DNA from: Goekera deserti
Lineage (GTDB): Bacteria; Actinomycetota; Actinomycetes; Mycobacteriales; Geodermatophilaceae
DNA: 64,000 nt
Direction of reading: 5' to 3'
Assembly: GCF_010685995.1 (NCBI RefSeq)
Contig: NZ_JAAGWK010000009.1
Location: 434,001-498,000, forward strand
The position numbers were made by a program, and so were the translations under genes. Below, piece after piece: positions 3,894 to 27,163 of the stretch; positions within the stretch are counted from its first letter, which is position 1; each line of letters starts with the position of its first letter. The notes beneath the pieces were generated by a model. It was not told the DNA's origin. It saw only the letters and a program-made list of their open reading frames with translations, and searched no databases.

Positions 3894-4652
3894 TCAGGCC
3901 CAGCGGGTGCGGGCGCTCAGCGCGGCGAGGGCGGCGGCGCCGGCGGTGGAGGTGCGCAGCACCTCCGGGCCCAGCCGGACCGGGGTCGCCCCGGCCGCCC
4001 GGAAGGCCACGACCTCGCCGTCGGTGAGCCCACCCTCCGGGCCCACGACCACGACGACGGTGCCGGAGGTCGGCAGCGCGAGCCCGGCCAGCGGGGTGCG
4101 GGCCTGCTCGTGCAGCACCACGGCCAGGTCGACGTCGGCCAGCACGCCGCACACCTGCCGGGTGGTCATCGGCTCGGTCACCTCGGGCACCCGCGGACGC
4201 CGGGACTGCTTGGTGGCCGCGCGGGCGGCGGCCCGCCACTTCCCCACGCCGCGGGCGACCCGGTCCTCGGTCCACCGCGTCACGCAGCGCGCCGCCTGCC
4301 AGGGCACCACGCGGTCCACGCCCAGCTCGGTGGCCAGCTCCACCGCCAGCTGCCCGCGGTCGCCCTTGGGCAGCGCCTGGACCAGCACGAACTCCGGGTC
4401 CGGCGCCTCCAGCTCGTGCCGGGTGAGCACCCGCACCTGCAGCCGGCCCGGGGCGGTGGACACGACCTCGCACTCGGCGAGCACGCCGTCGCCGTCGCCG
4501 ACCCGCACCCGCTCGCCGGCACCGAGCCGCAGCACGTCGACGGCGTGCTTGCCCTCGGGGCCGGCGACGGTGATCAGGTCGGTGTCGGGCACCTCGTCCA
4601 GCAGGAACAGCGGCGTCCCGTCCGGTGCGGGGCCGGGGTCGGCGGCGGACAC
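3894..4652 (-). CDS. rsmE: 16S rRNA (uracil-1498-N3)-methyltransferase
   Basis: SPOUT-class methyltransferase that modifies U1498 of 16S rRNA in the ribosomal decoding region. The 252-residue length is typical. The N-terminal PUA-like part is followed by family motifs VQALPKGDR, ATELGVDRV, the VVGPEGGLT glycine-rich loop, and the C-terminal knot LGPEVLRTSTAGAAALA that binds S-adenosylmethionine. It starts at GTG 4652, 5 bases after the dnaJ stop, so it is the last gene of a hrcA-dnaJ-rsmE operon, an order conserved in actinobacteria. It probably shares heat-shock control with those genes. Confidence 0.95.
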   Translation of the reverse strand: MSAADPGPAPDGTPLFLLDEVPDTDLITVAGPEGKHAVDVLRLGAGERVRVGDGDGVLAECEVVSTAPGRLQVRVLTRHELEAPDPEFVLVQALPKGDRGQLAVELATELGVDRVVPWQAARCVTRWTEDRVARGVGKWRAAARAATKQSRRPRVPEVTEPMTTRQVCGVLADVDLAVVLHEQARTPLAGLALPTSGTVVVVVGPEGGLTDGEVVAFRAAGATPVRLGPEVLRTSTAGAAALAALSARTRWA

Positions 4653-4657
4653 CGGGC

Positions 4658-5800
4658 TCAGCGGCCGTTGAAGGCGTCGCGGACCCGGGAGAACAGCCCG
4701 CCCTGCGCCTCCCGGTGCGAGTCGGCCCGGTCCTCCCCGCGCAGCGCGGCGAACTCGCGGAGCAGCCGCTCCTGCTCCTCGTCCAGGCGGGTGGGCGTCT
4801 GCACGTCGACGTGCACCACCAGGTTGCCCCGGCCGGTGCCGCGCAGCCGGGGCGCGCCGTGCGCCCGCAGCGTGATCAGGCTGCCGGCCTGGGTGCCGGG
4901 CTTGACGTCGATCTCCTCGTCGCCGTCCAGGGTCTTCAGGTTCAGCGTGGTGCCCAGCGCGGCGGAGCTCATCGGCAGCGTGACCCGGCAGTGCAGGTCC
5001 TCGCCGTCGCGGGTGAACACGTCGTGCGGGCGCTCGTGCACCTCGATGTAGAGGTCGCCGGCCGGGCCGCCGCCGGGGCCGACCTCGCCGTGCCCGGTGA
5101 GCCGGATGCGCATGCCGTCCTCGACCCCGGCCGGGATCTTCACCGGGATGGTGCGCCGCGCGCGGACCCGGCCGTCACCGCCGCACTGCGAGCACGGCTC
5201 CGGGATGACCTGGCCGGTGCCGGTGCAGGTCGGGCAGGGCCGGCTGGCCACGACCTGGCCGAGGAAGGAGCGCTGCACGCTCTGCACCTCACCGCGGCCG
5301 TTGCAGGTGGTGCACGTGGTCGGGTGGGTGCCCGCGGCGGTGCCGGCGCCGGCGCACAGGTCGCACAGCACGGCGGTGTCCACGGTGATGTCGCTCGTCG
5401 TCCCGAAGACGGTCTCGTCGAGGTCGAGGTCCAGGCGCAGCAGGGCGTCGCCCCCGGCCCGGGTGCGGCTGCGCGGGCCGCGCGCCGCGCCACCGGCACC
5501 ACCGAAGAAGGCGTCCATGATGTCGCCGAGGCCACCGAAGCCGGCCGCGCCGCCGCCGAACGGGCTGCCCCCACCCCCGCCGGTCTCGTACGGGTCGCCA
5601 CCGAGGTCGACGATCCGGCGCTTGTCCGGGTCGGTCAGGCACTCGTAGGCGCGGCTGACCTCCTGGAAGCGCTCCTTGGCCTCGGGCGCGGGGTTCACGT
5701 CCGGGTGCAGGTCGCGCGCCAGCTTGCGGTAGGCGCGCTTGATGTCGGCGTCGGTCGCTCCCTGGGAGAGACCGAGCACGCCGTAGTAGTCGGTTGGCAC
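4658..5800 (-). CDS. dnaJ: Molecular chaperone DnaJ (DnaJ2 type)
   Basis: Hsp40 co-chaperone of 380 residues that stimulates DnaK ATPase. The J domain has HPD at residues 32-34. A Gly/Phe-rich linker follows at about residues 75-105. Four CxxCxGxG zinc modules come next ([32 protein letters not shown]), then the substrate-binding C-terminal domains. The start is GTG 5800, giving [11 protein letters not shown], the family N terminus. The frame is open much further upstream, but that part overlaps hrcA and has no family match. It lies 14 bases downstream of hrcA and is probably controlled by the CIRCE element at 6931. It is likely the second DnaJ of the genome, since actinobacteria usually keep another with dnaK-grpE. 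Confidence 0.97.
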
Positions 5801-5814
5801 GTGGTTCTCGCCCC

Positions 5815-6837
5815 TCAGCTCTCGGCCAGCAACTGGCCGACGTAGCGGGCCACGGCTCGTACCGCGGCCATGTTCCCTGCGTAGTCCATGCGGGTGGGCC
5901 CGACGACACCGAGCCCACCGAGTGCCCGGTCGCCCGAGCCGTAGCCCACCGACACCACCGAGGCGCCGGTCAGGGCCTCGTGCGCGTTCTCCTCGCCGAT
6001 GCTCACGAAGACCGTGCTGGGGTCCACCTCGCCGATCAGGCGCAGCACGATGACCTGCTCCTCCAGCGCCTCCAGCAGCGGGCGGACCGTGCCCGGGAAG
6101 TCCAGGGCGCTGCCGCGGGTCAGGTTGGCCGTGCCACCGACGACCAGCCGGTCCTCGCCGGGCTCGACGAGCGTCTCGACCAGCGTGGCGCCCACCGTGG
6201 CCACCAGCGCGCGCAGGTGCGGGGGCGCGTTCTCGACCAGGTCGGGCACCGTGGAGCTGGCCTCGGCCAGCTTCGCCCCGACGAAGGCCGAGTTCAGCAG
6301 GGTGCGCAGCTCCGCGACCGCCTCGGCACCCACCTCGGCCGGGCACTCCACCACGCGCTGCTCGACCCGGCCGGTGTCGGTGATCAGCACGACCAGCAAC
6401 CGGTGCGGGCCCAGGTGCACCAGCTCCAGGTGCCGGACGGCGCTGCGCGACAGCGTCGGGTACTGGACGACGGCGACCTGGCGGGTCAGCTGGGCCAGCA
6501 GCCGCACGCTGCGCCCGAGCACGTCGTGCAGGTCGACCGCGCCGTCCAGGAACTTCTCGATCGCGCGGCGCTCGGCCACCGACAGCGGCTTGACCGCCGA
6601 CAGCCGGTCGACGAAGAAGCGGTAGCCCTTGTCGGTGGGCACCCGCCCGGCGCTGGTGTGCGGCTGGGTGATGTACCCCTCCTCCTCCAGCACCGCCATG
6701 TCGTTGCGGATGGTGGCCGGGGAGACGCCGAGGTCGTGCCGGGCGGCCAGGGCCTTGCTGCCGACCGGGTCGTTGGTGGAGACGTAGTCCTGGACGATGG
6801 CACGCAGGACCTGGAGACGGCGGTCGTCGTGTGCCAC
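5815..6837 (-). CDS. hrcA: Heat-inducible transcription repressor HrcA
   Basis: Repressor of 340 residues that binds CIRCE operators and is activated by the GroE chaperonin. The N-terminal winged helix includes the segments [18 protein letters not shown] and [12 protein letters not shown], all diagnostic of HrcA. A GAF-like dimerisation part follows, then the C-terminal conserved segments VIGEE-like (VSIGEEN) and VGPTRMDY. The GTG at 6837 begins [15 protein letters not shown], the family start. A perfect CIRCE lies about 95 bases upstream, so the gene is autoregulated. It is first in the operon with dnaJ and rsmE. Confidence 0.97.
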
Positions 6838-6930
6838 TCCTGACACCTCCCGTACCGGTCGACGTGCGTGCGGGGCGGCCGTCCGGGCCGGCGGCCACGG
6901 GCGGGCCATCCGGGGCGGACCCCTCGGAGA

Positions 6931-6957
6931 CTGGCACTCCGCAGGGCAGAGTGCCAG
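6931..6957 (-). promoter_or_regulatory. CIRCE operator (HrcA binding site)
   Basis: CTGGCACTC, nine bases, GAGTGCCAG: a perfect 9-9-9 inverted repeat that matches the CIRCE consensus (TTAGCACTC-N9-GAGTGCTAA) in its GCACTC/GAGTGC core. It lies between a TATGCT hexamer and the hrcA start, where HrcA would block transcription of hrcA-dnaJ-rsmE. Confidence 0.95.
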
Positions 6958-6960
6958 CCC

Positions 6961-6966
6961 AGCATA
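6961..6966 (-). promoter_or_regulatory. Candidate -10 hexamer of the hrcA operon
   Basis: TATGCT on the minus strand lies three bases upstream of the CIRCE element, so the transcription start would fall inside the operator. No clear -35 box was found at the usual distance. Confidence 0.45.
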
Positions 6967-7059
6967 CGACCGGACCGCTCCGGCGCGCTGTGGCGCGCGG
7001 CACCGGCCCACCCCCGGGGACCACCCCGACCGCGCCGCCGCCGGCCTCTCGACGGCCAC

Positions 7060-7065
7060 TAGGGT
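7060..7065 (+). promoter_or_regulatory. Candidate -10 hexamer TAGGGT
   Basis: TAGGGT lies in the divergent intergenic region, about 60 bases before the inferred CTG start at 7123 and 12 bases before a GTG at 7078. It is followed by a small inverted repeat, AGGG...CCCT. It could drive the conserved gene downstream. Confidence 0.3.
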
Positions 7066-7122
7066 GGGGTCCCTACCGTGACCCCAGACGCGGGGACCCG
7101 GGCTGGACGCGGAGGTCGGTCC

Positions 7123-7443
7123 CTGATCTTCAAGGCGGTTCGAGACGGGCGCCCCTACCCCGACCACGGCTTCTCCACCAAGGACTGGGCTCTGATCCCG
7201 CCCCGGCAGGTCCGGCTGGACACCATGACCACCACCAAGCGCGAGCTGGCCCTGGACGCGCTGCTGGCCGACGACTCGACCTTCTACGGCGACCTGTTCC
7301 CGCACGCGGTGCAGTGGCACGGCGAGCTCTACCTGGAGGACGGGCTGCACCGCGCGCTGCGGGCCGCGCTGCAGCAGCGCAACGTGATCCACGTGCGGGT
7401 GCTCGACCTCGACGCCCTCATGCCGCCCACGCCCGTCGGGTAG
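7123..7443 (+). CDS. Conserved actinobacterial protein (Rv2375-like)
   Basis: A 106-residue protein conserved next to hrcA in actinobacteria. The mycobacterial counterpart sits divergent from hrcA and is often labelled VapB-like without functional proof. Homologues begin [15 protein letters not shown]. Here that segment is preceded by CTG 7123, with a perfect GGAGG seven bases upstream, so a CTG start is likely. The alternative is GTG 7078, which adds 15 unrelated residues. Readable features are [24 protein letters not shown] and [17 protein letters not shown]. It ends in TAG, one of few such stops in the window. No toxin partner follows it, so I do not call it an antitoxin. Its function is unknown. 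Confidence 0.8.
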
Positions 7444-7503
7444 CCGCCAGCCGCGGCGGAAACCCCGTTGCGACGCAGCCGGGGGCCGTGCGGGACTGGG
7501 CGG

Positions 7504-8235
7504 GTGGACGGCTTCGACCCCCTGGCCAGCTTCGGCGAGCAGACCGCCGCCACCTACGACGACGCGCTGCGCGGGGACGAGCAGCAGACCGTCGACTGCC
7601 TGCAGCGGTGGGCCCGCGGTGGCCCGGCCCTGGAGCTGGCCGTCGGCACCGGCCGGATCGGGCTGCCGCTGGCCGCCCGGGGCGTGCCGGTGGACGGCAT
7701 CGAGCAGTCGGCGGCGATGATCGCCCGGCTGCGCGCCAAGCCGGGCGGGGACCGGCTCACCGTCGCGCACGGGGACATGGCGACCGAGCGGCTGCCCGGG
7801 CGCTACCGGCTGGTCTACCTGGTCTACAACACGCTCTACAACCTGCTCACCCAGGACGGTCAGGTGCGGTGCTTCGAGAACGCCGCCGCCCACCTCACCG
7901 AGGACGGCGTCTTCCTGGTCGAGGCGCAGGTGCCCGCGTTCCTCTACCGGCTGCGCGAGGACCAGTACGTGGACGCCGAGGCCGTCGGCCTGTCCTCGGT
8001 CACCCTGGACGTCGGCCGGTTCGACCCGGCCACCCAGCTGCTCGACGAGTGCCACGTCACCCTGGGCGCCGGCGGTGTCCGGGTGGCACCGATCGTCACC
8101 CGCTACGTGTGGCCCAGCGAGATGGACCTGATGGCGCGGATCGCCGGGCTGCGGCTGGTGCAGCGCTCGGCGGGCTGGGCGGGCGAGCCGTTCGACGGCC
8201 GCAGCACCCGGCACGTGTCGGTCTACGGGCGCTGA
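7504..8235 (+). CDS. Class I SAM-dependent methyltransferase
   Basis: A 243-residue protein with a class I methyltransferase fold. Motif I reads [15 protein letters not shown] (about residues 45-59), the acidic end of beta2 is in VDGIEQS, and an H-G-D-M segment corresponds to motif II. The segment [13 protein letters not shown], with a C-terminal all-beta part, resembles methyltransferases of small molecules. GTG 7504 was taken as start because the frame before it has no homology-like content. The gene is convergent with the response regulator at 8243. The substrate is unknown. Confidence 0.8.
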
Positions 8236-19048: not shown

Positions 19049-20794
19049 TCAGCGCAGCCGGCGGGTGGTGTCCGGCAGCCGCTCGGTCACCCCGCGGGCG
19101 TCCAGCCACTCGGCCAGCGGCACCGCCACCCGGCGGCTGGTGCCCCACGCCTGCCGGGCCTGGCTGAGCGTGAACGGCTGGGGCAGTGCCGCCAGCCGGG
19201 CCCGGGCCTCCCGCTCCACACCGGGGGCCAGGTGCACCCCGTCGGCGATGCGCAGCAGCTGGCCGTCCCGGACCGCCGCCGCCAGCTCACGCGGACCCAG
19301 CCCGGCGGCGGCGAGCTCGTTGGCGTCCGGCGCGGCGAACGGTGCCTCGGCCAGCCGCGCCCGGACACCGTCCACCGCGCGCTGCACCGCCGGCGGCAGC
19401 GCGGCCTCGGCGGCCACCACCCGGCCCTCGCGCAGCGCCAGCGGGGGCCGCACCACCGCCGGCACCAGGTCCACGTCGGGCAGCTCCAGTGCCCGGCGGA
19501 CCACCTCGGCGGGCGGCCCGGGCTCCAACGGGCGCAGCTGCCGGTAGCGGGTCACCACCTGCGGCACCCGGGCGGCCAGCTCGTCCACCAGCCCGGCCGC
19601 CAGCAGCCACGGACCCACGGCGGTGGCGTCGGCGGGCACCGGCCAGCCCATCGCGGTGAAGTCCGCGGCCCGCACCACCCGGCGGCGGGCCAGCTCCGCA
19701 CCGGCCGCCGCCCCACCCGGTGCCCGCCCGGCCAGCTCGGCACCGCGCAGCCGCGCCGAGCCGCGGCGGCGCAGCTCCGGCGGGTCGACGTCGCGCACGT
19801 CGGCGCCCAGCACGGTGCGGGTGCCCGGGTCCCGCAGCAGCACCCGGTCGCCCACCCGCAGCGGCAGCGGTGCCGCCAGCCGCAGCCGCGCCGCGCCGGC
19901 GTCCAGCGGGCGCAGCCGGGTGGCCACCGTGGCCGAGCCCACGTGCAGCACCGGCTCGGCCGGCAGGGTGCCGGCGTCCCCGCTGGTGAGCACGACGTCC
20001 AGCTCCGACGTCGCGCGGAAGGCCCCCGGGGTGAGCAGGGCGTCGCCGCGGGCGACCTGCTCCACGGCCACGCCACGCAGGGCGAGGGCCACCCGGGCGG
20101 TGGCGCCGGCACGCTCGACCGGCTCGCCCAGGGCGTGCATCCCGCGGACCGTCACCTCCCGGCCGCCCAGCACGAGCCGGTCCCCGACCGCGACCGAGCC
20201 CGCCGCGAGCGTGCCGGTCACCACCGTGCCGGCTCCCCGGATGGTGAACGCCCGGTCCAGCCAGATCCGGACCGGCGCCGACCGGTCCGGCGCCGGCAGG
20301 CCGGCGAGCAGCTCCTCCAGGGCGGCCGCGAGCTCCGGCACCCCCCGCCCGGTCGGCGCGGCGACGGGCAGCCCGCGCACCCGCCCCATCGACGTCGCGG
20401 CCAGCCGCGCCACGGCGTCGGCGAGGACCGGGCCGGGGTCGGCGACGTCGGCCTTGGTGACCGCCAGCAGCGCGTGCCGAACCCCGAGCGCGTCCAGCAC
20501 GGCGACGTGCTCGGCGGTCTGCGCCGACCAGCCGTCGTCGGCGGCCACCACCACCAGCGCCGCGGGCACCGACCCGACGCCGGCCAGCATGTTGCCCACG
20601 AACCGCTCGTGCCCCGGCACGTCGACCATCGCGACCGTGCGCCCGCCGTCGAGCGTCGTCCAGGCGAAGCCGAGGTCGATGGTGAGCCCGCGGCGTCGCT
20701 CCTCGGCCCACCGGTCGGGCTCCATGCCGGTCAGGGCACGGACCAGGGTGGACTTCCCGTGGTCCACGTGCCCCGCCGTCGCGACGACGTCCAT
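19049..20794 (-). CDS. selB: Selenocysteine-specific elongation factor SelB
   Basis: A 581-residue translational GTPase that carries Sec-tRNA to the ribosome and recognises the SECIS hairpin of selenoprotein mRNAs. G1 is AGHVDHGKST (residues 7-16). The TIDLGFAW segment, DVPGHERF and the TKAD guanine-binding motif follow. Domains II and III resemble EF-Tu (GAGTVVTGT), and the last 250 residues form winged-helix modules that bind SECIS RNA. Start ATG 20794 lies 10 bases after the selA stop. Because the tRNA-Sec here has anticodon CTA, this SelB should act at UAG codons. The codon is read by the tRNA rather than by SelB, so no sequence change in SelB is needed. Confidence 0.96.
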   Translation of the reverse strand: MDVVATAGHVDHGKSTLVRALTGMEPDRWAEERRRGLTIDLGFAWTTLDGGRTVAMVDVPGHERFVGNMLAGVGSVPAALVVVAADDGWSAQTAEHVAVLDALGVRHALLAVTKADVADPGPVLADAVARLAATSMGRVRGLPVAAPTGRGVPELAAALEELLAGLPAPDRSAPVRIWLDRAFTIRGAGTVVTGTLAAGSVAVGDRLVLGGREVTVRGMHALGEPVERAGATARVALALRGVAVEQVARGDALLTPGAFRATSELDVVLTSGDAGTLPAEPVLHVGSATVATRLRPLDAGAARLRLAAPLPLRVGDRVLLRDPGTRTVLGADVRDVDPPELRRRGSARLRGAELAGRAPGGAAAGAELARRRVVRAADFTAMGWPVPADATAVGPWLLAAGLVDELAARVPQVVTRYRQLRPLEPGPPAEVVRRALELPDVDLVPAVVRPPLALREGRVVAAEAALPPAVQRAVDGVRARLAEAPFAAPDANELAAAGLGPRELAAAVRDGQLLRIADGVHLAPGVEREARARLAALPQPFTLSQARQAWGTSRRVAVPLAEWLDARGVTERLPDTTRRLR

Positions 20795-20804
20795 CAGCCC
20801 CGGC

Positions 20805-22148
20805 TCACCGGCGGGGGACGGCGGCGTGCCGGGACGGCGCGGCGAGCCGGTCGGCGGTCTCCAGCACCGCCGCGGCCAGCGCGTCGTCGTCCTGCGGGAG
20901 CACGCTGCGCAGGTCGAGCAAGGTGCTCCCGTCGGCGACGTGACCCACCACCGGGTGCGAGCCGGCGCGCAGTGCCGCGGCGTACGCCGCCGGCAGCGCG
21001 ACGGCGGCGCTGGGCAGCGGGAACTCCGGCGCCCCTCCCCCACCGATCCGCGCCGTGCTGCTCACCGCCGCGGCGGCGACCCCGGAGGCGACCAGCCGGT
21101 CGGCCAGCCGCTCGGCGCGCGCCCGGAGCCCCGCGACGTCGGCGGCGAGCATCTGCGGCACCGGGGGCGTGGGGCCGCGCAGCGTCGCCTCGAGCGCGGC
21201 CAGCGTCGTCTTATCCACCCGCAGTGCCCGGTACAGCGGATGCCGGCGCAGCCGCTGCACCAGCTCGACCCGGCCCAGCAGCAGCCCGGCCTGGGGCCCG
21301 CCGAGCAGCTTGTCGCCGCTGCACACGACCAGGTCGGCGCCGTCGGCCAGGGTGGTCTGCAGGTCGGGCTCGTCGGGCAGCAGCGGGTGCGGCCGGAGCA
21401 GCCCGGAGCCGACGTCGGCCACCAGGGGCACGCCGGTGCCGGCGAGCACCGGGGCCAGCTCGGCGACCTCGACCGACCGGGTGAACCCGCGCACCACGAA
21501 GTTGGACGGGTGCACCTTGAGCACCGCGCCGGTGTCCGGGCCCAGCGCCGCGCGGTAGTCCGCGACCGACGCCCGGTTCGTCGTCCCCACCTCGCGCAGC
21601 CGGGCGCCGGTGGAGGTGAGCAGCTCGGGGATGCGGAACCCGTCGCCGATCTCGACCAGCTCACCGCGGGCGATCACCAGCTCCCCGCCGAGGGCGGTGG
21701 CGACCAGGGCCAGCGCCGCCGCGCAGTTGTTCACCACGATCGCGGTCTCCGCCGCCGGCACCGCGGCGAGCAGCGCGCCGATCGCTCCCTCCCCGCGCGG
21801 GCCGCGCCGGCCGGTGCCCAGGTCCAGCTCGACGTCGGTGGTGCCGCTGGCCGCGGTCATCGCCTGCACGGCGGCGGCCGACAGCGGTGCCCGGCCGAGG
21901 TTGGTGTGCACCAGCACGCCGGTGGCGTTGAGCACCGGGCGCAGGCTCCCGGCGCTGCCCGGCAGGCCGGCGACGGCGGCGGCCACCGCGTCGTCCGGGT
22001 CGAGGTCGCCGGTCCGGACCCGCTGCTGGACGTCGTGCAGCGTGGCCCGCACCAGGTCCCGGCCCAGCCGGTCGACGGCGGCCGCGATCGGCGGCTCGGC
22101 GAGCAGGGCGTCGGTGCGCGGCACGGCACGGCGCGGGTCCGGGTTCAC
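20805..22148 (-). CDS. selA: L-seryl-tRNA(Sec) selenium transferase SelA
   Basis: PLP enzyme of 447 residues that converts Ser-tRNA(Sec) to Sec-tRNA(Sec) using selenophosphate. The N-terminal helical tRNA-binding part is followed by NATGVLVHTNLGRAPLS, the VVNNCAAAL segment, REVGTTNR, KVHPSNF, DVGSGLL and the PLP-binding lysine K280 in CSGDKLLGGPQAG. All are diagnostic of SelA. Start GTG 22148 gives VNPDPRRAVPRTDALLAEPP. It lies 85 bases downstream of the tRNA-Sec gene on the same strand and just before selB, so selC-selA-selB probably form one unit. Confidence 0.97.
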   Translation of the reverse strand: MNPDPRRAVPRTDALLAEPPIAAAVDRLGRDLVRATLHDVQQRVRTGDLDPDDAVAAAVAGLPGSAGSLRPVLNATGVLVHTNLGRAPLSAAAVQAMTAASGTTDVELDLGTGRRGPRGEGAIGALLAAVPAAETAIVVNNCAAALALVATALGGELVIARGELVEIGDGFRIPELLTSTGARLREVGTTNRASVADYRAALGPDTGAVLKVHPSNFVVRGFTRSVEVAELAPVLAGTGVPLVADVGSGLLRPHPLLPDEPDLQTTLADGADLVVCSGDKLLGGPQAGLLLGRVELVQRLRRHPLYRALRVDKTTLAALEATLRGPTPPVPQMLAADVAGLRARAERLADRLVASGVAAAAVSSTARIGGGGAPEFPLPSAAVALPAAYAAALRAGSHPVVGHVADGSTLLDLRSVLPQDDDALAAAVLETADRLAAPSRHAAVPRR

Positions 22149-22233: not shown

Positions 22234-22329
22234 TGGCGGAGGCGGACGGGAATCGAACCCGCCTGACCGAGCTGCTCGGCCACGTCGGCTTTAGAGGCCG
22301 CGGGGGCCACCAGACACCCTGACGCCTCC
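22234..22329 (-). tRNA. selC: tRNA-Sec with anticodon CTA (reads UAG)
   Basis: A 96-base gene, 5' end at 22329, with encoded CCA (22236-22234) after discriminator G22237. The acceptor GGAGGCG pairs with CGCCTCC. The T arm GGCGGG-TTCGATT-CCCGTC is followed directly by the acceptor strand. The variable arm is long (GGCCGAG-CAG-CTCGGTC), and the D arm has a four-base loop (TGGT), all typical of tRNA-Sec. The anticodon loop at 22296-22290 is CTCTAAA between CGGC and GCCG, so bases 34-36 are C-T-A. Normal tRNA-Sec has CTTCAAA (TCA). The tRNA therefore pairs with UAG. Oddities: T8 faces C instead of a pairing partner, giving a 7+6 stack rather than 8+5; a G-A mismatch closes the anticodon stem; the D stem has one mismatch. 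Sec at UAG is known from Geodermatophilus and Blastococcus. Confidence 0.95.
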
Positions 22330-26164: not shown

Positions 26165-27163
26165 GTGACGACGACGGTCCGGCTGACCCAGTACGCGCAC
26201 GGCGGCGGGTGCGCCTGCAAGATCCCGCCCGGCGAGCTCGAGGCGGTCGTGGCCGGCCTGACCGGCACCGGACCCCGCGACCCGGCCACCGAGCTGGTCG
26301 TCGGGCTGGACGACGGCGACGACGCGGCCGTGGTGCGCCTGCCCGGGGGCCAGGGCCTGGTACTGACCACCGACTTCTTCACCCCGGTCGTCGACGACGC
26401 CCACACCTTCGGCCGGATCGCGGCAGCCAACGCGCTCTCCGACGTCTACGCCATGGGCGGCACCCCGGTCGTCGCGGTCAACCTGCTGGGCTGGCCGCGC
26501 GACGTGCTGCCGGCGGAGCTGGCCGCCGAGGTGCTGCGCGGCGGACTGGAGGTGGCCCAGGCGGCGGGCTGCCACGTGGGCGGCGGGCACTCCATCGACT
26601 CCCCCGAGCCCACCTACGGCATGGCGGTCACCGGGCTGGTCGACCTGGACCGGCTGATCCGCAACGACGCCGCCGAGGCCGGGACGGCGATCTCGCTGAC
26701 CAAGCCGCTGGGCGTGGGCGTGCTGAACAACCGGATGAAGGCCACCGGCGAGGTGTCCGCGGAGGCGATCGCCTCGATGACCACGCTCAACGCCGAGGCG
26801 GGCCGGGCCGCCGTGGCCGCCGGCATCCGCGCCGGCACCGACGTCACCGGCTTCGGGCTGCTGGGGCACCTCTACAAGATGGCCCGGGCCTCCGGCGTCA
26901 CCGCGGTGGTGGACGCGGCGTCGGTGCCCTACCTGACCGGCGCCCGGCAGGCCGTCGCCGCCGGGTACGTCGCCGGCGGCACCCGGCGCAACCTGGACTG
27001 GGTGCGCCCGCACACCGACCTGTCCGCGGCCAGCGAGGACGACGCCCTGCTGCTCGCCGACGCGCAGACCTCCGGCGGACTGCTGCTCGGCGGCGAGGTG
27101 CCCGGGGCGCCGGTGATCGGCGAGTTCGTGCCCCGCGGGGAGGCCGTCGTCGTCCTGCGCTGA
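26165..27163 (+). CDS. selD: Selenide, water dikinase SelD (selenophosphate synthetase)
   Basis: A 332-residue enzyme that makes selenophosphate from selenide and ATP for SelA. The catalytic region reads LTQYAHGGGCACK, with Cys16 and Lys19 matching Cys17 and Lys20 of the E. coli enzyme. In many organisms the first position is Sec, but here it is TGC, so this SelD does not itself need Sec decoding. Metal-binding segments follow (LTTDFFTPVVDD, ALSDVYAMGG), with CHVGGGHSID and TSGGLLL near the end. The GTG at 26165 gives the family N terminus TTTVRLTQY. It is on the opposite strand from selA-selB, about 4 kb from selA. Confidence 0.97.
   Translation: MTTTVRLTQYAHGGGCACKIPPGELEAVVAGLTGTGPRDPATELVVGLDDGDDAAVVRLPGGQGLVLTTDFFTPVVDDAHTFGRIAAANALSDVYAMGGTPVVAVNLLGWPRDVLPAELAAEVLRGGLEVAQAAGCHVGGGHSIDSPEPTYGMAVTGLVDLDRLIRNDAAEAGTAISLTKPLGVGVLNNRMKATGEVSAEAIASMTTLNAEAGRAAVAAGIRAGTDVTGFGLLGHLYKMARASGVTAVVDAASVPYLTGARQAVAAGYVAGGTRRNLDWVRPHTDLSAASEDDALLLADAQTSGGLLLGGEVPGAPVIGEFVPRGEAVVVLR

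Follow-up and report, generated by a model that had tools for sequence, protein, structure and literature searches.

A selenocysteine tRNA with a CUA anticodon in Goekera deserti points to selenocysteine at UAG, with candidates for a two-codon genome and a second origin in other bacteria

Goekera deserti carries a gene for a selenocysteine tRNA (tRNA-Sec) with a CTA anticodon. On sequence evidence, we put the probability at about 95% that this gene is the selC of a bacterial selenocysteine (Sec) system in which UAG has replaced UGA as the Sec codon. The gene lies in a stretch of 64,000 nucleotides, here called the window. Since UAG-encoded Sec has already been published for the Geodermatophilaceae, according to the account in PMC5330540, we regard the system as a member of the known variant, and UAG-Sec in G. 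deserti is a further case of it, in another genus. New here are a family-wide survey of the anticodon, a SelA tree requiring a single switch, a candidate genome with two Sec codons, and a candidate second origin. The last two, which go beyond the known UAG-Sec of this family, are of higher interest.

ARAGORN found a single tRNA in the window, with anticodon cta, and labelled it tRNA-Pyl. The Rfam model for tRNA-Sec (RF01852) matched at 22329-22238 on the minus strand at 65.4 bits (gathering score 47). It spans the full model (positions 1-91 of 91); several of the consensus pairs are non-standard here, and no family besides tRNA-Sec was reported by Rfam at this locus. Positions 22290-22296 of the plus strand read TTTAGAG, which corresponds to a minus-strand loop CTCTAAA with CTA at 22294-22292. 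The tRNA has a long variable arm, and G73 with an encoded CCA, by which membership of the class was judged, was found at 22237-22234. A pattern for tRNA-Sec(CTA) matched once in the window and in none of 100 shuffled versions. The gene departs from the usual tRNA-Sec in having CTA where a UCA anticodon is expected; this is no bar to membership because anticodon variants are known, as described in PMC5330540. The original prediction, which was made from the letters alone, gave the correct coordinates, loop and encoded CCA, as judged by the sequence and by ARAGORN, and its tRNA-Sec architecture with a CTA anticodon agrees with the full-length Rfam match and the long variable arm. ARAGORN gives the tRNA-Pyl label to tRNA-Sec(CTA) at every CTA locus where it finds the gene, which is a trap for annotation.

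The genes selA, selB and selD are all found in the window, each scoring above the curated cut-off of its family. The tRNA gene stands beside selA, as had been predicted, and selB follows on the same strand; selD is located 4 kb from selC. The start of selA was set at GTG, and upstream of it the open frame continues into the tRNA gene. The order selC-selA-selB is retained in most of the CTA loci that are long enough to show it. The features are listed in Table 1, together with those found in other genomes.

Table 1 Features of the selenocysteine systems described in the text.
Feature	Sequence	Position	Strand	Evidence
selC, tRNA-Sec with CTA anticodon, G73 and encoded CCA	Window	22234..22329	-	ARAGORN, Rfam RF01852, sequence
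Anticodon CTA (UAG-reading), loop CTCTAAA at 22296-22290	Window	22292..22294	-	Sequence
selA, Ser-tRNA(Sec) to Sec-tRNA(Sec) synthase	Window	20805..22148	-	TIGR00474 411.4 bits, cut-off 267.9; Pfam SelA 327.6 bits
selB, Sec-specific elongation factor	Window	19049..20794	-	TIGR00475 280.7 bits, cut-off 242.25; Pfam GTP_EFTU, SelB-wing_3
selD, selenophosphate synthase, without in-frame stop	Window	26165..27163	+	TIGR00476 380.4 bits, cut-off 125
TCA-only loci of the family, L166-L172	Genomes G070, G072, G073, G068, G066, G069, G074
tRNA-Sec(CTA), selA, selB, yedE and GrdA gene	L095	2319-2795 (GrdA) and 4293-7693	+
Second tRNA-Sec, anticodon TCA	Geodermatophilus sp. LHW52908, contig C17	L147:1169-1263	-	81.8 bits
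AhpD-like frame, 192 aa	Geodermatophilus sp. LHW52908, contig C17	L147:1579-2157	+	Pfam CMD 28.2 bits, cut-off 23

A second tRNA-Sec with a TCA anticodon would have spoken against the original prediction, and we searched the whole G. deserti genome (a draft of 4,841,546 bases in 61 contigs, 100% complete) with the Rfam tRNA-Sec model, scoring 150 of 1324 first-look candidates. Five matches resulted, of which the window gene scored 65.4 bits. The other four are called tRNA-Ser (tga, cga and gga) and tRNA-Leu (tag) by ARAGORN and were rejected; the tRNA-Ser(tga) scored 47.6 bits, barely above the cut-off of 47. The CTA gene is the only genuine tRNA-Sec among the candidates scored, and no second one with TCA was found.

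We then looked for proteins that could use the UAG codon. In a family-by-family search of G. deserti, formate dehydrogenase (FDH) was the only selenoprotein family found. One gene for the FDH alpha subunit scored above the cut-off, on another contig (G000:C57), and its one in-frame stop is a TAG. Read through this TAG, the protein has 1111 aa with Sec at position 197 (U197) and scores 1937.2 bits in the model NF041513 (formate_DH_Act, cut-off 1400). The TAG aligns to the Sec (X) of E. coli FdnG (1kqf). An FDH beta-related frame adjoins the gene, with a score below the model cut-off (169.2 bits against 334.7). Directly 3' of the TAG lies the sequence GGTCCCC-GGTCT-GGGGACC, which has the shape expected for a bacterial SECIS; 10 of 200 shuffles of this sequence fold equally well. 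The in-frame TAG and downstream hairpin that had been proposed for FDH alpha were both found, with the TAG at the FdnG Sec position. In-frame TGA codons, which would have pointed the other way, were found in none of the FDH, AhpC-TSA, SelD and UGSC families, nor with an AhpD query, and the SelD family search found no in-frame stop of any kind in the G. deserti selD.

To characterize the Sec site further, we compared 31 FDH loci, namely the 30 best-scoring ones of the family search and that of G. deserti itself. The Sec site is present in 30 of them, from 30 genomes, and the codon is TAG in all 30, within the motif ENQARI-TAG-HS. The 31st locus, L126 (G079:C12), has lost the site through a frame break; for want of an intact frame and a Sec site, the FDH fragment of G079, with its one TGA, was not accepted as a UGA-Sec gene. 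The hairpin was analysed over the 30 sites (21 distinct) as seven pairs against 500 shuffles, in a region that is also coding. In this set 99.3% of the cells are paired compared to 87.9% in the shuffles, none of which reached as high a value. Cells changed on both sides number 13 compared to 4.6 in the shuffles, and sliding the partner by 1-3 columns leaves 31-59% of the cells paired. Four of the pairs are invariant and two of the seven vary on both sides, a number matched by 428 of the 500 shuffles in this coding region.

Other proteins of the family also carry TAG at putative Sec positions. A search for the UGSC family in 112 Geodermatophilaceae genomes gave 95 matches in 54 genomes. One TAG is present in 72 of these matches, 23 have no stop and none has TGA. 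In the 20 UGSC loci fetched, the UGSC position is TAG in 12 and TGC in 8, and in every one of the 12 the TAG stands for the U of UGSC. An AhpC-like protein with one TAG (W-TAG-PYC, followed by a hairpin; L173, L174 and L175) was found in three of the six CTA genomes searched with AhpC-TSA. The same searches of G. deserti gave no UGSC match and six AhpC-TSA matches, all without an in-frame stop. Under default annotation the TAG will truncate the FDH gene of G. deserti, as well as UGSC and AhpC genes in related genomes.

UAG also continues to serve as a stop codon, as 3 of 35 roughly called genes of the window terminate at TAG. With similarly rough gene calls, made to see whether CTA genomes have fewer TAG stops, TAG ends 46 of 347 genes in CTA selC loci compared to 9 of 32 in the TCA loci of the family (Fisher p 0.03) and 13 of 57 in those of the order (p 0.07), between sets that also differ in G+C. 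In the CTA FDH loci the count is 23 of 72, a figure that wrongly includes Sec TAGs among the stops.

To determine how the anticodon is distributed, we searched the 112 Geodermatophilaceae genomes with a pattern for bacterial tRNA-Sec that allows any anticodon. The CTA tRNA was found in 101 genomes from nine genera, G. deserti and Geodermatophilus sp. LHW52908 (G059) included. TCA alone was found in seven genomes from three genera (g5, g6 and g7), whose assemblies consist of 190-550 contigs. The remaining four gave no tRNA-Sec match and are 67-82% complete, so they are uninformative. An extra match in G008 (loop CTGTGAA) was not accepted as tRNA-Sec. The CTA tRNAs differ from the TCA tRNAs of the family in having C-G, not U-A, beside the anticodon loop. 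For the order, we drew 397 genomes evenly, at least 253 of which had a match; outside the family, the matches listed are all TCA except for one CTA contig in the bin G230. This second tRNA of G230 is on the contig L033, in a bin 82% complete, and was taken for contamination.

A scan of the genome collection with the tRNA-Sec(CTA) pattern gave 92 stretches (L013-L104), 86 of them filed under Geodermatophilaceae. Two stretches, L050 and L084, are chance matches in which neither ARAGORN nor Rfam finds a tRNA. L024, L033 and L060 are filed under Bacillus, Jatrophihabitans and Frankiales, respectively. A tRNA-Sec(CTA) is present on both L033 and L060, and a cta tRNA on L024. The SelA proteins of all three are 75-77% identical to that of the window, for which reason we took them for misfiled Geodermatophilaceae contigs.

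Both anticodon states occur in the family, which allows the switch to be located phylogenetically. We constructed a SelA tree from 52 of 88 usable rows (39 CTA, 4 TCA of the family and 9 TCA of the order). The CTA rows fall on one side of a branch with an SH-aLRT support of 100, and one anticodon change is required. The four TCA rows of the family are not surely adjacent to the CTA rows, with L209, from another family, placed between them (94). No FDH above the cut-off was found in the TCA genomes of the family, and a change from UGA to UAG within one orthologous gene was therefore not observed. In one of these TCA genomes, G070, there is a peroxiredoxin-like frame (L176, G070:C104, minus strand) with SSFT-TGA-PGTASAG and a hairpin, which scores below the AhpC-TSA cut-off.

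In systems of this kind the anticodon sets the Sec codon, and charging by SerRS and SelA and delivery by SelB and SECIS proceed as in UGA systems. We infer charging, delivery and Sec insertion at UAG in G. deserti from homology with Geodermatophilus and Blastococcus. SerRS would charge the selC tRNA with serine, and SelA, using the selenophosphate made by SelD, would convert the Ser-tRNA to Sec-tRNA. SelB would then bring the Sec-tRNA to ribosomes stalled at a UAG with a SECIS hairpin immediately after it; a UAG without such a hairpin would stay a stop. In G. deserti the predicted client is FDH alpha, of the FdnG-like type, with U197 encoded by UAG. The original prediction that UAG followed by a SECIS is read as Sec is supported by the tRNA, the sel genes, the FDH TAG and the hairpin.

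We considered three other explanations. One is that the gene encodes a tRNA-Pyl serving PylRS-dependent insertion of pyrrolysine at UAG, as the ARAGORN label and the CUA anticodon would have it. We consider this extremely improbable: a true tRNA-Pyl has a variable arm of three nucleotides, as described in PMC7609411, whereas the arm here is long, the tRNA-Sec model is matched in full and no other Rfam family was reported. The gene also adjoins selA and selB, and the FDH TAG lies at a known Sec position. The window tRNA shares codon and label with the pyrrolysine system and differs from it in shape, neighbours and client proteins. Hardly more credible is a general suppressor of amber codons, serine-type and allo-tRNA-like, which would act through EF-Tu and place Ser or Sec at many UAG codons. 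PMC7609411, in the part concerned, does describe tRNAs that are shaped like tRNA-Sec without being so. However, TAG still terminates genes, the Sec TAG is followed by a conserved SECIS hairpin, and an intact selB is adjacent, with the selC-selA-selB order kept in most CTA loci reaching far enough.

The third explanation holds that the FDH TAG is a nonsense mutation or a sequencing error and the tRNA a decayed relic. UAG is normally a stop, and the FDH copy of L126 is degenerate at the Sec site, both of which fit such a reading. It is nevertheless about as improbable as pyrrolysine, since TAG, with a downstream hairpin, occupies all 30 readable Sec sites in 30 genomes and 101 of the 112 family genomes retain the CTA tRNA.

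UAG-decoding tRNA-Sec of Geodermatophilus and Blastococcus was reportedly the subject of Mukai et al. 2016 (doi 10.1002/anie.201511657). PMC5330540 (2017) credits that study with the description of Sec codons other than UGA and with the report of FDH and UGSC-motif selenoproteins with UAG, and itself records tRNA-Sec with CUA in three Geodermatophilaceae genomes. According to other accounts, the variant Sec codons comprise UAG, UAA and ten sense codons (PMC10778597), and Blastococcus is named for UAG (PMC5133445). The statement in the original prediction that UAG-Sec was described in 2016 for Geodermatophilus and Blastococcus is upheld by the accounts in PMC5330540 and PMC5133445. Going by the former, these genera share the family, the anticodon and the UAG-encoded FDH with G. 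deserti, which differs in belonging to another genus, of which it is the sole member among the 112 genomes, and in that UGSC was not found. Blastococcus saxobsidens DD2 has an AhpC with Sec-TAG and a bSECIS (PMC5330540), whereas the AhpC-TSA family search found no UAG-encoded AhpC in G. deserti. Santesmasses et al. 2017 (PMC5330540) likewise describe tRNA-Sec(CUA) and TAG-Sec with bSECIS, for three genomes as far as their account goes, compared to 101 of 112 here, together with TCA genera, one switch, a putative two-codon genome and a possible second origin. The canonical UGA system of E. coli and most actinobacteria likewise has selC, selA, selB, selD, a SECIS behind the codon and an FdnG-like FDH; in G. 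deserti the anticodon is CTA instead of TCA.

One stretch of the collection scan points to a UAG-Sec system of separate descent. The contig L095 is filed as Coriobacteriia bacterium S32M_St_metabat_43 and has 35% G+C. Its tRNA-Sec(CTA) scores 64.2 bits and lies directly behind selA (614.6 bits) and selB (379.5 bits), and its SelA and SelB are 33% and 27% identical, respectively, to those of the window. The contig also encodes YedE, YedF (in a cut frame that scores below its cut-off), component C alpha, and a thioredoxin with its reductase, which are associated with selenium and glycine reductase metabolism. One gene is identified as glycine reductase selenoprotein A (GrdA; NF040748, 274.6 bits, cut-off 130) and has a TAG at residue 44, in the context ECFV-TAG-TSAGAMDLENQ. 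We take this position to be where GrdA has its Sec. Downstream of the TAG, the RNA folds no better than shuffles (z -0.24). The organism is unsure because the contig comes from a metagenome bin, and the thioredoxin and tRNA look clostridial. We found no report of UAG-Sec in Coriobacteriia in the open literature. If L095 is what it seems, it represents an independent UAG-Sec system and a second origin, and UAG-Sec would be a recurrent change, not a one-off.

Within the family, Geodermatophilus sp. LHW52908 appears to use two Sec codons. Where its contig C11 and NZ_QVQH01000019.1 overlap, the 200-base blocks compared are identical. This genome has a native tRNA-Sec(CTA), FDH and UGSC genes that both contain TAG, and a second tRNA-Sec with anticodon TCA on contig C17. 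An AhpD-like gene, 300 bases from the TCA tRNA, contains one in-frame TGA (CFY-TGA-MESH). No such AhpD-like TGA gene was found elsewhere in the family, the other listed matches being at most 40% identical and without a stop. In 396 genomes of the phylum there are six AhpD matches at E <= 1e-25 (35-41% identical), each with one TGA, at the same residue in all six. TGA is thus the rule among the closest kin of this gene and not a fresh mutation. A hairpin with loop GGTCT, like that of the FDH SECIS, is present in three of the six (L182-L184) and indistinct in the other three. In LHW52908 the hairpin ACGCAGA-GTT-TCTGCGT has an energy at chance level (z -0.74, with 44 of 200 shuffles as good). No selA or selB was found on C17 by tblastn, so those of the host would need to serve both tRNAs.

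The second tRNA lies in a stretch of C17 rich in insertion sequences (IS). The first 5 kb of C17 have 64% G+C compared to 74% for the contig, with transposase genes around. Copies of these IS recur at 92-99% identity on the LHW52908 contigs C71, C56, C44, C48 and C34, making foreign DNA in the assembly less likely. For C17:24000-30000, nothing beyond 68% identity was found in four congeners, so this comparison did not place C17 in the core chromosome. Among the tRNAs compared, the TCA tRNA is nearest to plasmid ones, from Tsukamurella (85%) and Arthrobacter (81%), and these plasmids carry selD, selA, selB and an FDH gene close by. We opened three of the six plasmid matches to tRNA-Sec, all tca, and found that such genes do occur on plasmids in the phylum. 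The three plasmids (L216, L217 and L218, from Arthrobacter, Tsukamurella and Streptomyces) carry tRNA-Sec(TCA), selA, selB and selD; two adjoin an FDH gene and one has a Tn3 transposase nearby. A search for the UGA-encoded AhpD gave distant matches on plasmids, the best at about 34% identity, and none on viral contigs, where an exact search for the TCA tRNA also found nothing. One viral-contig match, L215 (IMGVR_UViG_3300017492_000040), was not taken for tRNA-Sec, being 90 nt long and 56% identical to the TCA tRNA. It is a short cta tRNA at 1928-2017 on the plus strand, perhaps a phage amber suppressor, in AT-rich surroundings with small phage-like genes.

According to PMC5330540, 18 genomes, eight of them bacterial, have two tRNA-Sec genes, and nothing was found in its account on different anticodons in such genomes. 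We found no paper in the open-licence literature that describes the putative two-codon genome, an absence that carries little weight.

Taking these observations together, we judge the chances to be somewhat better than even that the Sec codon of actinobacteria is modular and set by the tRNA-Sec that an organism holds. In such a case LHW52908 would read UAG by its native tRNA, in FDH and UGSC, and UGA by an acquired tRNA-Sec(UCA) that travels with the AhpD-like gene, using one SelA and one SelB, and L095 would mean that the switch to UAG occurred at least twice. A tRNA gene that travels with its selenoprotein gene would explain how a UGA selenoprotein could be taken up by a lineage in which UGA has ceased to mean Sec. 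LHW52908 would then provide a natural test of whether one SelB can support two coexisting Sec codons.
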